Positions 46,607 to 54,653 of a stretch of DNA of 60,824 bases are shown here, in pieces; the stretch's first letter is position 1; the number at the start of each line of letters is the position of its first letter. The translations under genes and the position numbers were made by a program. This DNA is from an uncultured Pelagibacteraceae bacterium (GTDB lineage Bacteria > Pseudomonadota > Alphaproteobacteria > Pelagibacterales > Pelagibacteraceae): assembly GCA_902579585.1 (NCBI GenBank), contig CACHHJ010000003.1:1-60824 (forward strand), in the 5' to 3' direction. The notes under the pieces are model-generated. The model had not been told where the DNA came from, searched no databases, and saw only the letters and a program-made list of their open reading frames with translations.

Positions 46607-47095
46607 TTAAATTTTACTTAAAAAATTTTCTGCTGCAGATAATTCGCACGTTGCAGTTTCTTTTTCTACCTCAAATTTTTTAACAATTTCATTTTCAACC
46701 AACATTGTGTATCTGTTTGATCTTATTCCTAGACCTTTCTCTGATTTATCTACTTCAGCACCAATGGCTTTGGTAAAGTTAAGAAAGGGGTCTCCTATCA
46801 TAAAAATTTTTTCACCTACACCTTGATTTTCACCCCATGCTTTCATAACGTTTGGATCGTTCACGGCGACACAGACTATTTTGGATACTCCCTTTTTCTT
46901 AGCAGTTTCATAATTTTTTATGTATCCTGGCAAATGAATTGCAGAGCAAGTTTTGGTGAATGCCCCTGGCATACCCAAAAGTACAATTTTTTGATTTTTA
47001 AAAATATTGCTTGTACTAATTATTTTTACTTCATTTTTTTGGTTTAAGTAAAAAAATTCAGAAACTGGCAGTTTGTCCCCAACCTTAATTTTCAT
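46607..47095 (-). CDS. Peroxiredoxin (Prx5-like)
   Basis: GMPGAFTKTCSAIHLPGY peroxidatic Cys motif. Confidence 0.93.
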   Translation of the reverse strand: MKIKVGDKLPVSEFFYLNQKNEVKIISTSNIFKNQKIVLLGMPGAFTKTCSAIHLPGYIKNYETAKKKGVSKIVCVAVNDPNVMKAWGENQGVGEKIFMIGDPFLNFTKAIGAEVDKSEKGLGIRSNRYTMLVENEIVKKFEVEKETATCELSAAENFLSKI

Positions 47096-48468
47096 TTAAT
47101 CCTTTCTAAAATATAACTTTTCACATCAGAAATATTATTTTCTAAAATATCATATTTTTCTTTTTTATTTAATATTTTGCTTAGTTGATTGGGCATATTA
47201 ACTTCTTTATTTGTCGCTATTTTAATCGTTTCCAAAAATTTATAAGGATGCGCTGTGCCTAGTATCAAAGTTTCATACTCTAAGTTTAATTTTTTTGATG
47301 CACCCACAGCGGTTGCAGTATGTGGATCAATAATAAAATCAAGTTTATCTGCTATATTTTTTATAATTTCCAAAGTTTCTTTATCGCTCACTTTGCAAGC
47401 ACAAAAATCTTTTTTTATAATTTTTTTTTGCTCTTCATCTAAACTAAAAGATCCATTTGAGGAAAGTTCTGACATTAAATTAGAAACTTTTTTATCATCA
47501 TTTTTTACAATATCAAAAAGAAGTCGCTCAAAATTACTTGCAATTTGAACATCCATACTTGGTGACAACGACTGTCTAACCTTGTTGGGCTTGTATTCTC
47601 CTGAGTTAATTGCTCTTTCTAAGATATCATTTTCGTTTGTGGCTACGATCAATTTTTCAATAGGAAGGCCCATTTTTTTTGCCATATATCCAGCAAATAC
47701 ATCACCAAAATTTCCAGTTGGAACTGAAAAATTAATTTTTTTACTTTTAAATTTAAAAGCTGAATAAAAATAGTAAACAATTTGACAAACTATTCTTGCC
47801 CAATTAATAGAATTTACCCCTGACATATTAATTTTTTCTCTAAAACTATTTTCTGAAAACATTTCTTTAACTATTTTTTGACAATCATCGAATGAACCCT
47901 TTATCGCTACATTGTAAATATTATCTGAACCTATCGTTGTCATAATTTTTCTTTGAATTTTAGATATTTTTTTATCAGGATGTAAAACAAAAACATTTAT
48001 ATTTTTTCTATTATTTAATGCTGCTATTGCAGCTGATCCTGTGTCTCCAGAAGTAGCAACTATAATATTAACAGTTTTATTAGCCGAAACTTTAAGTTCA
48101 TCATACATATTACCAAGAACCTGCATAGCTATATCTTTAAAAGCTAGTGTAGGCCCGTGATAAAGTTCCACTAAATTAATATCACCAACTTTATTTATTT
48201 TTATTACTTCTTTATTAGAAAAACTCCTGTAGGAATTTTGAATGAGATTTTTTAGATTTGCTTTTGTTATATCGGATGAACAAAAATTAAAAATTATTTC
48301 AGAAGCAAGGTCTGTATAAGACAATTCGCTAAGTTTTTTTATTTCATCTTCACTATATGTTTTAATATTTTTTGGTACAAATAAACCTCCATCAGGTGCC
48401 AACCCTCTTAGAAATATATCTTTAAAACTATAACTTTGATTTTTGTTTCTAGTGCTTATGTATTCCAC
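47092..48468 (-). CDS. thrC: Threonine synthase (GTG start)
   Basis: MEYISTRNKNQSYSFKDIFLRGLAPDGGLFVP, ELYHGPTLAFKDIAMQ, ATSGDTGSAA. Confidence 0.96.
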   Translation of the reverse strand: MEYISTRNKNQSYSFKDIFLRGLAPDGGLFVPKNIKTYSEDEIKKLSELSYTDLASEIIFNFCSSDITKANLKNLIQNSYRSFSNKEVIKINKVGDINLVELYHGPTLAFKDIAMQVLGNMYDELKVSANKTVNIIVATSGDTGSAAIAALNNRKNINVFVLHPDKKISKIQRKIMTTIGSDNIYNVAIKGSFDDCQKIVKEMFSENSFREKINMSGVNSINWARIVCQIVYYFYSAFKFKSKKINFSVPTGNFGDVFAGYMAKKMGLPIEKLIVATNENDILERAINSGEYKPNKVRQSLSPSMDVQIASNFERLLFDIVKNDDKKVSNLMSELSSNGSFSLDEEQKKIIKKDFCACKVSDKETLEIIKNIADKLDFIIDPHTATAVGASKKLNLEYETLILGTAHPYKFLETIKIATNKEVNMPNQLSKILNKKEKYDILENNISDVKSYILERIK

Positions 48469-48641
48469 TAATTAGACAGTTTCTGTTCTTTTTTAAAATT
48501 TTTTTTCCAGGATGAGTTTAATAATCCTAATAGGATGAATGAGAGCACTATGATTAATAAAGCACTTTGACCACCTGAAGTTTCAGATATACAAACAGCG
48601 CACATACTTAGGACTTCCGAATTTAAACTATTAATAATCAT
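48468..48641 (-). CDS. Small single-TM protein with CxxC motif (57 aa), uncharacterised
   Basis: Translated by hand: MIINSLNSEVLSMCAVCISETSGGQSALLIIVLSFILLGLLNSSWKKNFKKEQKLSN*; start overlaps ctaG stop (ATGA), stop overlaps thrC start (TAGTG); not in the supplied ORF track. Confidence 0.75.
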   Translation of the reverse strand: MIINSLNSEVLSMCAVCISETSGGQSALLIIVLSFILLGLLNSSWKKNFKKEQKLSN

Positions 48642-49084
48642 TTTTTAAAATAAACAAATTGAATTATAGCTTCTTTTATATTCTTTGTCACATTTGGGTC
48701 AACTAATAAAACCAACGCGTATTTTTCTTTTTCTCCACCTTTTAAAGTTTGCTTCTCATAACAAAAACAGTTCATTTTGGTCATATAGTCTTTAAGCTCA
48801 GGAGGGTAAACCTGAAAAGTAGCCATTGCCGATATACTTTTTTTACTTAAATTTTCTACTGAATAATTAATTGTTTGTACCTCACCAGGTTTTAAAATTA
48901 TATTTTTCTCTTTTGCCTCAAATTTAAAAGGTAAATCGCTATGAACACTTGTAATTAATTTTGTTTGGATAAGCTGGCTGTTGCTATTTTCACCTCTAAG
49001 AAAAACAAAAGAAGTAATTATAAGTATAACTAATGAGCTTATTAGGACAGAAATTAACTTTTTGTTTTTAGGCAAATTTATCAA
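48638..49084 (-). CDS. ctaG: Cytochrome c oxidase assembly protein CtaG/Cox11
   Basis: N-terminal TM, VHSDLPFKFEAKE, KMNCFCYEKQTL copper-binding CFC motif. Confidence 0.92.
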   Translation of the reverse strand: MINLPKNKKLISVLISSLVILIITSFVFLRGENSNSQLIQTKLITSVHSDLPFKFEAKEKNIILKPGEVQTINYSVENLSKKSISAMATFQVYPPELKDYMTKMNCFCYEKQTLKGGEKEKYALVLLVDPNVTKNIKEAIIQFVYFKK

Positions 49085-49982
49085 CTAGGATTGAGATGAA
49101 GATTGCAAATAAATAAAGAATTGAGAAAGCAAATATTTGTTTTGAAATACTTTTTTCAGATTTTTTATCTTTTGTTTTCAACAGTTTATAACAAATAAAT
49201 ATATAGTATGCGCTTAAAGGAAAAGAAAATAGCAAATATATTATACCTAAAAATTCTAAATAGTAAGGAGCAACGGCTACTGGAAATAATAAAATTGAAT
49301 ACGCAAATATATTTTTCTTTGTTGTTTCTACACCTGATGTAACTGGTAACATTGGTATATTTGCTTTTTTATAATCTTCTGACTTAAAAAGACTTAGGGC
49401 CCAAAAATGTGACGGGGTCCAAACAAAAATTATCAAAAAAAGAATAATTGGTTCAATAGAAATACTCCCTGTAGCTATTGCCCATCCAATCACGGGAGGC
49501 AAAGCACCTGCTGCTCCGCCAATCACAATATTTTGTGGAGTCTTCCTTTTGAGCCAAATAGTGTAAACAAAAACATAGAATAAAATTGTTAGGGCAAGTA
49601 ATGCGGCTGCCATAAGGTTTGAAAAAAAATATAAAGCTCCAACCGATACAAAAGAAGATACAATACCAAAAACAAGTGCCTCATTTTTAGTTAGCTTTCC
49701 GGTTGGAATTGGTCTTAAGCAAGTTCTAGACATAACTTTATCAACATCAGCTTCATACCAACAATTTAAGGAACCAGCTGCACCAGATCCAAGCGCAACA
49801 GCTGTAATTGATAAGATTGCGTATAAGTAATCTACACTTTTATATGGAGCAATTAGGAAACCAACAACACATGTAAAAATAGCTAGAGACATAACTCTTG
49901 GCTTCATTAATTCAAACAAAGCTTTAATGTAATGAATGGTATCGAATTTAAACTCTCTTACTTTTGTATCGGTATTGAGCAA
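49068..49982 (-). CDS. ctaB: Protoheme IX farnesyltransferase (haem O synthase)
   Basis: UbiA superfamily; NCWYEADVDKVMSRTCLRPIPTGKL, WTPSHFWALSL. Confidence 0.96.
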   Translation of the reverse strand: MLNTDTKVREFKFDTIHYIKALFELMKPRVMSLAIFTCVVGFLIAPYKSVDYLYAILSITAVALGSGAAGSLNCWYEADVDKVMSRTCLRPIPTGKLTKNEALVFGIVSSFVSVGALYFFSNLMAAALLALTILFYVFVYTIWLKRKTPQNIVIGGAAGALPPVIGWAIATGSISIEPIILFLIIFVWTPSHFWALSLFKSEDYKKANIPMLPVTSGVETTKKNIFAYSILLFPVAVAPYYLEFLGIIYLLFSFPLSAYYIFICYKLLKTKDKKSEKSISKQIFAFSILYLFAIFISILVDKFA

Positions 49983-50000: not shown

Positions 50001-50351
50001 TTATCCACCTAAGACAAAATAAATAAGCCTTGTAAAAACAGTGTACTTAGCTTCAGCAACCATTAGGCCTACAAAACATGCTATTGCAGTCATTGGCCAT
50101 AACAAAACATTTACAAGAGCATATCGTTCCCAAAACAGGTGCATAAAAAAAGCCATTATCAAACCTGCTTTTAAAAACATAAAGAATAAAATTAGAGACC
50201 ATCTTAAAAGACCTTGAAATTGGTACCAGTCAACCATGTAGGAAAAAAAACTCAGAACAAATAGAAGGCCCCAAATCCATAGGTATATTCCAATCTTATG
50301 GGTTGTAGCTGGTTTCTCTTTATTTTTATTTACTTCTGTATTTTCATTCAT
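50001..50351 (-). CDS. Prokaryotic cytochrome c oxidase subunit IV family
   Basis: Three TM segments; LKAGLIMAFFMHLFWERYALVNVLLWP. Confidence 0.82.
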   Translation of the reverse strand: MNENTEVNKNKEKPATTHKIGIYLWIWGLLFVLSFFSYMVDWYQFQGLLRWSLILFFMFLKAGLIMAFFMHLFWERYALVNVLLWPMTAIACFVGLMVAEAKYTVFTRLIYFVLGG

Positions 50352-50360
50352 TGTGAAACC

Positions 50361-51065
50361 TTACCAAAGATAGAAGAATGCGAAAATAAAAACCCAAACT
50401 AAATCCACAAAGTGCCAATAAAGACCTAATATTTCAATTGAAACATAGTCTGATTTCATTGTTGTAAAAAATCCACGTCTACCTGTATCAAAATCTCCTC
50501 TGTAAACTTTTCTAGCAAAAATAAAAAGAAATATTACACCTATCGAAACATGGGTACCGTGAAAACCGGTTATCATGAAAAAGTAAGATCCAAATTGACC
50601 AGCACCAAAAGGATTAGACCATGGCCTCACACCCTCGTGTATTAGTTTAGACCACTCAAAAGCTTGCATTCCTACAAAAATTAGTCCACCAATCGCTGTT
50701 GCAAGAATAAGATGGCCACACATTTTCCTATTTTTTTCATAACCATATTTGACAGCTAAAGCCATAGTACCACTACTAGTGATAAGCACAAATGTCATAA
50801 TTGCGATTAGAAGTAATGGTACTGGCACTCCCATAAAATCAAGTGAAAACACGTGACTAGTATTTGGCCAATCAACAACAGTTGAGGCCCTTCCCTTCAT
50901 GTAAGAAATTAAAAAACAGCTAAATATAAAAGTATCACTCAATAGGAATATCCACATCATGGCTTTACCCCACTGTACACCTTTAAAAGCGGTTTGGTCT
51001 GAACCTAAGTCGCTAGGAACACTTTTCCAACCTTTAGGTAGATTGTCTAATGATGAGTCTGACAT
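50361..51065 (-). CDS. Haem-copper oxidase subunit III (CoxP-like)
   Basis: FHGTHVSIGVIFLF and ILGLYWHFVDLVWVFIFAFFYLW. Confidence 0.92.
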   Translation of the reverse strand: MSDSSLDNLPKGWKSVPSDLGSDQTAFKGVQWGKAMMWIFLLSDTFIFSCFLISYMKGRASTVVDWPNTSHVFSLDFMGVPVPLLLIAIMTFVLITSSGTMALAVKYGYEKNRKMCGHLILATAIGGLIFVGMQAFEWSKLIHEGVRPWSNPFGAGQFGSYFFMITGFHGTHVSIGVIFLFIFARKVYRGDFDTGRRGFFTTMKSDYVSIEILGLYWHFVDLVWVFIFAFFYLW

Positions 51066-51077
51066 AATCAGTTTTCC

Positions 51078-51710
51078 TTAACTTGATAACATTAATCCAA
51101 AAAGCACTAACCAAACAGCTAATAAAAAATGCCAGTAAACTGCACAAATATCAATTAAATTATTAATTTCTTCTTTCTTAAGACTTCTTTTTATGAATTT
51201 AGATGTAGTTTTTCCCCAAAAATATATCCCTCCGATAATATGAAGGCCGTGAATTGTAGTGAATAAATAAAAAAAAGCATTAGCAACGTTGCTTGTAGCG
51301 TAAAACCCAGTGTTCATTAATTGATACCACACTATTAGCTGACCAATCAAAAAAGAATATGCTAAAAAACCAATAAAATATAAACCGTTTTTAGTCTTAT
51401 CAAAAAGATCGTTTTTTGCATATTTTACTGTTTGATGAAAAACTAAACTGCTTATTACTAAAATTCCCGTATTAAACCAAAGAAGCCAAGGCTCTGGCAT
51501 ATTTCTCCAGTCATGCACAAGCATTCGGTCGGAGTAAGCAACTATAAATAAAGAAAACAAAACAGTGCTTGCGGCCATTAAGGTTCTTAGACCCAACTTT
51601 TGTTTAGATAAGTTAACTGTCTGACCTTGATGATCGTTGTCAGCTTCTATTTGATCTTGTTCCCAAGGCTTTTCAGTTAGTAATTGAAAGATAGATTTTT
51701 TCTTGCTCAC
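51078..51710 (-). CDS. Second haem-copper oxidase subunit III-like protein (CoxO-like)
   Basis: TTIHGLHIIGGIYFW and CAVYWHFLLAVWLVLFGLML. Confidence 0.87.
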   Translation of the reverse strand: MSKKKSIFQLLTEKPWEQDQIEADNDHQGQTVNLSKQKLGLRTLMAASTVLFSLFIVAYSDRMLVHDWRNMPEPWLLWFNTGILVISSLVFHQTVKYAKNDLFDKTKNGLYFIGFLAYSFLIGQLIVWYQLMNTGFYATSNVANAFFYLFTTIHGLHIIGGIYFWGKTTSKFIKRSLKKEEINNLIDICAVYWHFLLAVWLVLFGLMLSS

Positions 51711-53536
51711 GTCTTCTCAACTTTCGCTCCTATAATCTCACTTGGAGGTTGGGTTTGTGGTATATAATCTTCTTTCGCACCTGGCACACTGAAATCGTAA
51801 GGCCATCTGTACACTTTTGGAAGTTCTTTGCCCCAATTACCATGTTCTGGAGGCATTTGCGGCGTTTGCCACTCTAGAGAGTTAGCTTTCCACGGATTTT
51901 TTTCTGCTTTCTTCCCAAGTCTAGCGCTTGCAAATAGATTGTATAAGAATAGCAATTGTGCAGCCCCAACTATTAAAACTGCAATAGTAATGAATTTATT
52001 TAAAAGCAATGTCGATACATCGATATATGGACTATCATAGATTTCAAAGTATCTTCTCGGCACACCAACGAAACCTTGATAATGCATTGGAAAATAAATT
52101 GCATATGAACCTATAAAGGTAATCCAAAAATGAACTTTTCCTAAAGTTTCATTCATCATTCTGCCCGTAACTAATGGATACCAGTGGTAAATTGCTCCAA
52201 AAACAACTAGTATAGGGGCAATACCCATAACCATATGAAAATGAGCTACAACAAAATAAGTATCAGATAAAGGAACGTCCACCGTTACATTTCCTAAAAA
52301 TAAACCAGTTAATCCTCCGTTTAAAAAAGTCACAATAAAACCAAGAGAAAATAACATAGGAAGAGATAAAACTATATTTCCTCTCCATAAAGTTAAAATC
52401 CAATTATAAACTTTAATAGCTGTTGGAACTGCAATAATTAATGTTGTTGTTGCAAAAAAGAATCCAAACCATGGGTTCATTCCACTTACATACATGTGAT
52501 GAGCCCAAACAAAAAAGCTTAAAGCACCAATCCCTACTATGGCCCAAACCATCATTCTATAACCAAAAATAGTTTTTCTTGAGTGGACTGATAACAAGTC
52601 TGAAACAATACCAAAAGCTGGTAGTGCAACTATATAAACTTCTGGATGGCCAAAGAACCAGAATAAGTGTTGGAATAGAATTGGACTTCCGCCTTCATGA
52701 GTTAATGTTTCTCCTAAAGAAACCATAGCTGGCATGAAGAAACTTGTTCCAAGCAAACTATCGAGCGTCATCATTAAACATCCAACTAATAAAGCTGGAA
52801 ATGCAAACATCGCAAGAACAGTTGCAGTAAAAATTCCCCAAATCGTTAAAGGCAATCTCATTAATGTCATACCTCTAGCTCTTAATTGTAAAACAGTTAT
52901 TATGTAATTTAATCCACCCATTGTGAAACCAGCCACAAATAATATGAGTGAAATTAACATTAGTATTATCCCTCCGTTATAACCGGGTGTCCCGGCTGTG
53001 ATTGCTTGTGGAGGATAAAGTGTCCAGCCTGCTCCGGTGGGCCCTCCAGGAACAAAAAAGCTTGCTAACAAAACTACAACTGCAACAACAAATGCCCAGT
53101 AGCTAAGCATATTTACATAAGGAAATGCCATGTCTCTTGCTCCGCACATGAGCGGTATTAATAAATTTCCAAATCCTCCGAGAAATAGTGCAGTTAATAG
53201 ATATACTACCATTATCATTCCGTGCATCGTCACAAATTGATAATAGGAAGAAGGTTCAAGCCAACCAAGTCCTGGCCAAGCCAACTGAATTCTCATTAAC
53301 CATGATAAAACTAATCCTAAAAGTCCTGTACCTATTGCCGTTAAAGCGTATTGAATTCCGATATATTTTGCGTCTTGTGAAAAAACATATGTGGTCCACC
53401 AGCTGTGTGAATGATAAAGCTCCTGATCAGGTAATTCAGCATCTGGAACTGCATCAATATCTGGTGTTGATACAGATGAAGCGTCACCTGCGTAGTCTGA
53501 TTTGGCTTCTAGTTTATGTTCAAATTCATCTGACAT
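51707..53536 (-). CDS. Cytochrome c oxidase subunit I
   Basis: HPEVYIVALPAFGI, WAHHMYVSGMNP, DTYFVVAHFHMVMG. Confidence 0.97.
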   Translation of the reverse strand: MSDEFEHKLEAKSDYAGDASSVSTPDIDAVPDAELPDQELYHSHSWWTTYVFSQDAKYIGIQYALTAIGTGLLGLVLSWLMRIQLAWPGLGWLEPSSYYQFVTMHGMIMVVYLLTALFLGGFGNLLIPLMCGARDMAFPYVNMLSYWAFVVAVVVLLASFFVPGGPTGAGWTLYPPQAITAGTPGYNGGIILMLISLILFVAGFTMGGLNYIITVLQLRARGMTLMRLPLTIWGIFTATVLAMFAFPALLVGCLMMTLDSLLGTSFFMPAMVSLGETLTHEGGSPILFQHLFWFFGHPEVYIVALPAFGIVSDLLSVHSRKTIFGYRMMVWAIVGIGALSFFVWAHHMYVSGMNPWFGFFFATTTLIIAVPTAIKVYNWILTLWRGNIVLSLPMLFSLGFIVTFLNGGLTGLFLGNVTVDVPLSDTYFVVAHFHMVMGIAPILVVFGAIYHWYPLVTGRMMNETLGKVHFWITFIGSYAIYFPMHYQGFVGVPRRYFEIYDSPYIDVSTLLLNKFITIAVLIVGAAQLLFLYNLFASARLGKKAEKNPWKANSLEWQTPQMPPEHGNWGKELPKVYRWPYDFSVPGAKEDYIPQTQPPSEIIGAKVEKT

Positions 53537-53554
53537 AATTTAGTGTTTTATAGT

Positions 53555-54391
53555 TTATTTATCCTTTTTTACTAGTTGCAAATTGTCATTTTTTCGATTT
53601 TTTGCCAACATTTTCTCAAAAGTTATTTGTTTTGCCTCCCATTTCCTATAATCTTTCTCTTCATCGACTATTACTCTTCCTCTCATGGCATAATGACCTG
53701 TTCCACAATACTCAGCGCATAATACTTCAAAATCCCCTACTCTAGTTGGAGTTAACCAATAGTAAGTTACAATTCCAGGTACCATATCCATTTTGCCTCT
53801 AAACTGAGGAACATAGAAATTATGAAGCACATCAATAGTTCTCAATTCAAATTTAACTGGTCGGTCTTTCAATACATGAAGTTCTTGGGCATCAACTAAT
53901 AAATCATCTTTGCCGTTTGGATCTTCCAAAATTAATCCAAAAGGGTTTTCGTCATTAATGTATTTGATATCAGTTTTTCCAAGAATGTTGTCTTTGCCTG
54001 GTAATCTATACTTCCAGCCCCACTGGTAAGCAAACACCTCTACTTTATATGCATCTTTTGGAACTGTAACATACTGATTCCAAACAACTAATCCGGGAGC
54101 TAATAATGCTGCAACCCCAATTGCAGTTGCCCAAGTTAATCTACTCTCTAATTTTTTATCTTCTGGTTTATACTCAGCCCTTCTATCTCTTTTATAACTA
54201 TACTTCCAAACGCAGTAAGCAACAAAAAAACAAATGGCTATGAATACAGCTCCAGTAATCCAAAACGTTAAAAGAATTGTGTCATCCATGTTGCCCCAAT
54301 TTGATGCGACTTCTGTCCACCACCATGGTGACCAAAAGTGAAAAGCTACTGAGCCAATCGTTATTAAAAATATACTTAAAGCTACTATCAT
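53555..54391 (-). CDS. Cytochrome c oxidase subunit II
   Basis: CuA motif CAEYCGTGHYAM, WGWKYRLPG, DVLHNFYVPQFRGKMDMVPG. Confidence 0.95.
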   Translation of the reverse strand: MIVALSIFLITIGSVAFHFWSPWWWTEVASNWGNMDDTILLTFWITGAVFIAICFFVAYCVWKYSYKRDRRAEYKPEDKKLESRLTWATAIGVAALLAPGLVVWNQYVTVPKDAYKVEVFAYQWGWKYRLPGKDNILGKTDIKYINDENPFGLILEDPNGKDDLLVDAQELHVLKDRPVKFELRTIDVLHNFYVPQFRGKMDMVPGIVTYYWLTPTRVGDFEVLCAEYCGTGHYAMRGRVIVDEEKDYRKWEAKQITFEKMLAKNRKNDNLQLVKKDK

Positions 54392-54392
54392 T

Positions 54393-54653
54393 TTATGCGT
54401 TTGAAATAATAAAAATTCCTATAAGAACAATGCCTGCAATTAAAATATGGTTACCTAAATCAATCAATCCAACTTTTTTATTTTTTGGATCAATTAAATC
54501 TTTCCACCTAAAAGGGACTGATTTTCTTTTTACTGCTATTTCAGCTTCGTTTTCATTTTTTTCTAATCTCAAAGAAACTGAAAAGAAAACAAAGTAAATG
54601 AATAGTACTAAAAATACTACCAATCCAAGCAACAATGCATAAGCTGTACTCAT
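54393..54653 (-). CDS. Small two-TM protein of unknown function, first gene of the cox operon
   Basis: 86 aa, N- and C-terminal hydrophobic helices; stop 1 nt upstream of the subunit II start. Confidence 0.8.
   Translation of the reverse strand: MSTAYALLLGLVVFLVLFIYFVFFSVSLRLEKNENEAEIAVKRKSVPFRWKDLIDPKNKKVGLIDLGNHILIAGIVLIGIFIISNA

Follow-up and report, generated by a model that had tools for sequence, protein, structure and literature searches.

We identified a short gene of 57 codons (48468..48641, reverse strand) whose product, of an undescribed family, accompanies a type-a-like cytochrome oxidase in Pelagibacteraceae and probably serves that enzyme as a lineage-specific helper or small subunit. 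The stretch of DNA analysed, hereafter the window, comprises 60,824 nucleotides with a GC content of 29% and derives from a Pelagibacteraceae (SAR11) genome whose assembly is incomplete. The name IIa.A is carried by another genome of this genus, from a 2013 sample of the eastern tropical North Pacific (ETNP) at 300 m, and the cell represented by the window therefore probably belongs to SAR11 subclade IIa.

The short open reading frame (sORF) is found near the end of a run of oxidase genes, all on the reverse strand. The run begins with u86 (54393..54653), encoding the cluster's other uncharacterised small membrane protein, and continues with ctaC (subunit II, 53555..54391), ctaD (subunit I, 51707..53536), cox3b (51078..51710), which encodes a second COX3-family subunit and marks the type-a-like oxidase, ctaE (a COX3-family subunit, 50361..51065), a gene for a COX4-type subunit IV (PF03626, 50001..50351), and ctaB (heme o synthase of the UbiA family, 49068..49982). 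The gene immediately preceding the sORF is ctaG, or cox11 (48638..49084), which encodes the CuB chaperone, matches PF04442 (E = 4.6e-27) and keeps the CFC motif. The downstream neighbours are thrC (threonine synthase with a GTG start, 47092..48468) and a redoxin gene. The initial annotation had described a 57-codon frame overlapping both ctaG and thrC, and when the window sequence was re-read its coordinates, translation and overlaps were all as claimed. The sORF ATG (48641-48639) overlaps the ctaG TGA (48640-48638) as ATGA, and the sORF TAG (48470-48468) has one base in common with the thrC GTG (48468-48466) as TAGTG. Both overlaps are the rule within the genus. Other genera have a gap of roughly 30-80 bp on each side of the sORF, so the tight overlap is specific to this genus.

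In AT-rich sequence of the window's composition, the probability of 57 open codons by chance is about 1%, which makes the frame by itself weak evidence; conservation decides. A profile search of relatives identified homologues in 38 of 61 Pelagibacteraceae genomes. Among 20 full-length members of the genus the pooled pN/pS is 0.25, and differences by codon position (2099/1276/4567) show an excess at the third. Of the five alternative frames, four have a pN/pS of about 1.0 to 1.9, and one antisense frame has 0.38. Pairwise dN/dS between the window and the five partners for which it was computable ranges from 0.10 to 0.24. Six residues (C14, C17, G23, A27, N42 and K47) are invariant across 23 diverse sequences, down to 40% identity. 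Judged by the pN/pS value, the homologues and the invariant residues, the sORF is a real gene under purifying selection. The earlier claim of a conserved gene with an invariant CxxC therefore holds, and the outcomes named beforehand as refuting it, a frame or CxxC not conserved in relatives and frameshifts in homologues, did not appear. One allele (L017 in genome G009, 1501-1671) contains a stop codon after CAVCI with the remaining frame intact, and may be a true pseudogene or a single-cell amplification error. This nonsense allele and the 1% chance of an open frame would fit a spurious ORF, or a regulatory or unrelated protein merely sharing the operon. However, the selection on the frame, the residues invariant across genera, and an oxidase-side location even in a genome where the gene is placed differently (G055, described below) strongly disfavour such explanations, which we consider very improbable.

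No Pfam or NCBIfam model matches the sORF. A scan of GTDB (84,980 species' genomes) yielded 45 sORF loci and no homologues outside Pelagibacteraceae or SAR11-type loci. Nearly all of the 45 are labelled Pelagibacteraceae or Pelagibacterales; the exceptions are two single-cell genomes labelled Alpha proteobacterium and one MAG labelled Woeseia, and there too the locus is of the SAR11 type. A sample of 385 genomes of the class contained, besides the window, just four weak matches, the best of which (G211) is antisense to a ctaB-like gene and was judged to be due to chance. Weak matches in the f2 genomes (L038-L040) have no CxxC, lie outside any oxidase locus and were rejected. The viral contigs and phages searched contain no sORF.

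The oxidase genes of the window have the layout ctaC-ctaD-COX3b-ctaE-COX4, i.e. ctaC-ctaD-COX3-COX3-COX4. The CtaD translation includes the motif GHPEVYI and matches TIGR02891 (E = 8.8e-197) with 654.7 bits, slightly below the equivalog cut-off of 670.75, while CtaC matches TIGR02866 (E = 4e-39) and contains the CuA motif CAEYCGTGHYAM. By these subunit I and CuA features the host operon is assigned to the family A1 cytochrome c oxidases. The same gene order is present in other Alphaproteobacteria (L103-L127) and on rhizobial plasmids, with relatives of cox3b on Sinorhizobium and Bradyrhizobium plasmids. We describe the enzyme as resembling the CoxMNOP or 'type a' kind, a name that follows from the layout and the literature (PMC5492768, PMC4013037) rather than from direct comparison with type-strain CoxMNOP.

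At the same chromosomal site other SAR11 genomes carry the canonical series ctaC-ctaD-ctaB-ctaG-ctaE-surf1-thrC, and in type-a-like carriers the sORF stands where these genomes have ctaE-surf1. Across a large part of the Pelagibacteraceae, the ispH-thrB-rnhA/thrC site is occupied by the type-a-like oxidase (50001-54391 in the window) in place of the canonical type-b cluster, and SURF1 has been lost. A 2014 survey reported SAR11 with the 'type b' COX operon only (PMC4013037), a generalization that fails for the type-a-like branch. We found no report of a type-a-like oxidase from SAR11 in the open-access literature. One locus (L041, G055) has canonical and type-a-like oxidases side by side and divergent, which is possibly an intermediate of the replacement. 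At another (L072, 1-8150) two type-a-like oxidases are in tandem; the second is without cox3b between ctaD and ctaE, and ctaG is absent. The u86 gene upstream of ctaC encodes a membrane protein of 86 aa that matches no family. It is kept within the genus, is weaker in L066, L069, L071 and L079, and follows COX4 in L123; a second lineage-specific subunit is possible.

All 45 scanned loci are beside oxidase genes, with the sORF after ctaB and mostly accompanied by ctaG, and thrC is next to the sORF wherever the contig continues. Both the sORF and cox3b occur in 37 of the 61 Pelagibacteraceae genomes and neither occurs in 22; the contigs of the two discordant genomes (G013 and G040) end inside the locus. 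The Fisher p-value for this co-occurrence (2e-14) treats genomes as independent despite kinship, and such values overstate independence because the genomes are related and many bins are incomplete.

The presence of ctaG does not predict that of the sORF. In G055 the sORF lies upstream of the type-a-like ctaC, separated from it by 8 bp, and apart from the ctaG-ctaE-surf1-thrC run; when three frames were read upstream of ctaC in twelve clusters, this was the only instance. At L072 (G056) the sORF directly follows ctaB and no Cox11 was found in the bin, and at L086 about 150 bp without a ctaG frame are left in the place of ctaG, yet the sORF is kept. SAR11 with the canonical oxidase have ctaG and no sORF. 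Because the sORF persists in two lineages whose locus has no ctaG, and given its placement in G055 and the canonical genomes with ctaG only, the sORF follows the type-a-like oxidase and not ctaG. Of the links originally proposed, the one to cytochrome oxidase is thus upheld by the 37 genomes shared with cox3b, whereas the one to ctaG is not. In a census of assembly factors in 52 genomes (38 sORF carriers and 14 non-carriers), Cox11 was identified in 37 carriers and in all 14 non-carriers. A protein dedicated to partnering Cox11 during CuB assembly would account for the adjoining and overlapping genes in the genus, for the near-universal Cox11 of carriers and for its periplasmic CFC. However, non-carriers have Cox11 as well, the sORF persists where Cox11 was not found (G056) or is gone from the locus (L086), so Cox11 is not required there, and the G055 copy is not beside ctaG. 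We regard this role as improbable.

All carriers fall within one CtaD clade (support 0.98), and the closest relatives outside it are without the sORF. One sequence nested within the clade, L123/L135, comes from a locus that has Sco and lacks both the sORF and ctaG. This locus (contig C15 of G056) is rearranged, with the order Sco, cox3b, ctaC, ctaD, ctaE, COX4, u86, ctaB, thrC. It may represent a second organism or contaminant in the bin, as another thrC-rnhA-thrB is present on C5. The clusters examined for relatives of the type-a-like oxidase in other Alphaproteobacteria contain no sORF. Since it is absent from these relatives and from L123, the enzyme type as such does not require it. The most parsimonious history has the sORF gained once in the SAR11 type-a-like clade and lost at least once.

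The census also covered SURF1, which is present in 14/14 non-carriers and in a single carrier of 38, G055, which has both SURF1 and the sORF. The absence of SURF1 from carriers results from the cluster swap. CtaA was found in 20 of the 23 carriers tested, so heme A is still made. The location of the sORF in the ctaE-surf1 place, the opposite distributions of the two genes and the retained heme A synthase are consistent with the sORF having taken over part of the SURF1 role in heme a insertion upon the replacement. However, the sORF does not resemble SURF1 and has no conserved histidine for heme, the change of oxidase type explains the negative correlation, and G055 encodes both, making a takeover unlikely. 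Sco and PCuAC are each found in 1/38 carriers and 4/14 non-carriers. The idea that compensation for loss of Sco is the sole reason for the sORF was rejected since most non-carriers are also without Sco; absence of Sco and PCuAC is common across SAR11 and is therefore not the reason for the sORF. Scores of Cox11 against PF04442 are about 86-124 bits in carriers with only the type-a-like oxidase and 155-172 bits in canonical SAR11 (the window gene is at 48638-49084). The lower scores suggest that Cox11 diverged after the change of oxidase.

The sORF product has a single predicted transmembrane (TM) helix, with a mean hydropathy of about 2.0 to 2.6 over the hydrophobic stretch. The N-terminal tail has a net charge of -3 to +1 and the C-terminal tail of +3 to +7. 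Based on the positive-inside rule and the basic C-tail, the protein is predicted to be N-out, with the CxxC outside and beside the membrane. Charge, hydropathy and alignment thus bear out the anatomy first described for it, a CAVC motif, one TM helix and a basic C-terminus. The conserved TM residues (G24, A27, I31, S34, F35, L38, N42 and W45) fall on one face of the helix (permutation p = 0.02), as would be expected if the helix packs on a partner protein in the membrane. The segment C-[AT]-V-C-[IV]-[ST]-[DE] is conserved as well as the best TM positions. An AlphaFold model consists of a single helix (mean pLDDT 69.8), confident in the TM region only and of low confidence around the CxxC. The G055 form is 50 aa and starts at MCAVC, with Met directly preceding the first Cys; the protein of this genome can thus do without the first dozen residues. 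There is no conserved His or Met beyond the CxxC, and metal binding would therefore need a dimer or a partner. A c-type heme site (CxxCH) was rejected because in 23/23 sequences the second Cys is followed by I, V or A.

It is quite possible, if short of probable, that the sORF encodes an accessory protein that acts on thiols or Cu(I) as the type-a-like oxidase matures on the periplasmic side. The short N-tail would lie outside with the C-x-x-C adjoining the membrane, the conserved TM face would pack on the oxidase or an assembly partner, and the lysine-rich C-tail would stay inside. The dithiol could then handle thiols or Cu(I) during maturation, for example by maintaining Cox11 or the CuA cysteines in a reduced or loaded state. 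The absence of both Sco and PCuAC, the usual CuA factors, from 37/38 carriers favours this role. However, 10/14 SAR11 without the sORF have the same gap, so the sORF is no simple stand-in for these factors, and the G009 stop codon, the lack of conserved His or Met and the low-confidence model around the CxxC also count against it. It is a somewhat doubtful but appreciable possibility that the protein is a structural component of the mature oxidase, a small subunit fixed to subunit II or III by a disulfide or thiol contact of the CxxC. Strict co-occurrence with one oxidase type, independence from ctaG and the conserved TM face all agree with it, and family A oxidases usually include a small fourth polypeptide (PMC9145763). 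However, a COX4-type subunit IV is already present in the cluster, and the strongest conservation is in the CxxC outside the TM helix, for which a simple structural subunit has no need. Because the cysteine segment is as conserved as the best TM positions and a COX4 subunit is already encoded, we slightly favour the thiol or copper role over a small subunit. More tentatively, the sORF may define a new family of minimal dithiol factors of the membrane, acquired a single time in Pelagibacteraceae, that mature or tune the replacement oxidase without SURF1, Sco and PCuAC.

SAR11 are among the most abundant marine cells, and a large branch of them has a type-a-like oxidase instead of type b, no SURF1, and a private small protein alongside. 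The oxidase replacement is a larger surprise than the sORF itself. Should the sORF turn out to act in assembly, it would illustrate how cells with a very small genome mature a cytochrome oxidase when the textbook helpers for copper and heme are missing. The motif MC[AT]VC[IV][ST][DE] is a clear marker for this overlooked gene, whose length is below common annotation thresholds. Small accessory proteins of oxidases are already known (PMC9145763).

Like COX4_pro and caa3 subunit IV, the small fourth subunits of family A, the sORF product is a short membrane protein encoded with the oxidase. However, it has no match to PF03626 or a similar profile, PF03626 being matched instead by 50001-50351, and it was rejected as a COX4 subunit IV. 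To our knowledge, these fourth-subunit families are not characterised by an invariant CxxC. Cox11/CtaG likewise combines a single TM helix, a periplasmic cysteine motif and a location in the oxidase cluster. However, Cox11 has its N-terminus inside, a large periplasmic domain and a CxC, whereas the sORF is predicted to be N-out, has no folded domain, occurs where Cox11 is absent, and has neither the CxC nor a Pfam match above cut-off (PF04442). Sco, which acts on CuA, resembles the sORF in having a membrane-anchored periplasmic dithiol, as predicted for the latter. However, the sORF is far too small for Sco/SenC or PCuAC, with no thioredoxin fold, CxxxC...H or Met/His motif; it does not match PF02630 and has CxxC rather than CxxxC and no conserved His. 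SURF1 has two TM helices and the sORF one, with no match to PF02104. The CoxMNOP or type a operons of rhizobia and other Alphaproteobacteria share the layout and homologous CtaC, CtaD, two COX3 and COX4 proteins, and the clusters examined have no match to the sORF, ctaG or u86. As described in the literature, CtaM of Staphylococcus aureus, in a different phylum, is likewise a membrane protein, required at a late stage in the maturation of a family A oxidase. By the sequence features compared, the sORF product represents an undescribed family with an unusual motif, distinct from Cox11, Sco, SURF1 and COX4.
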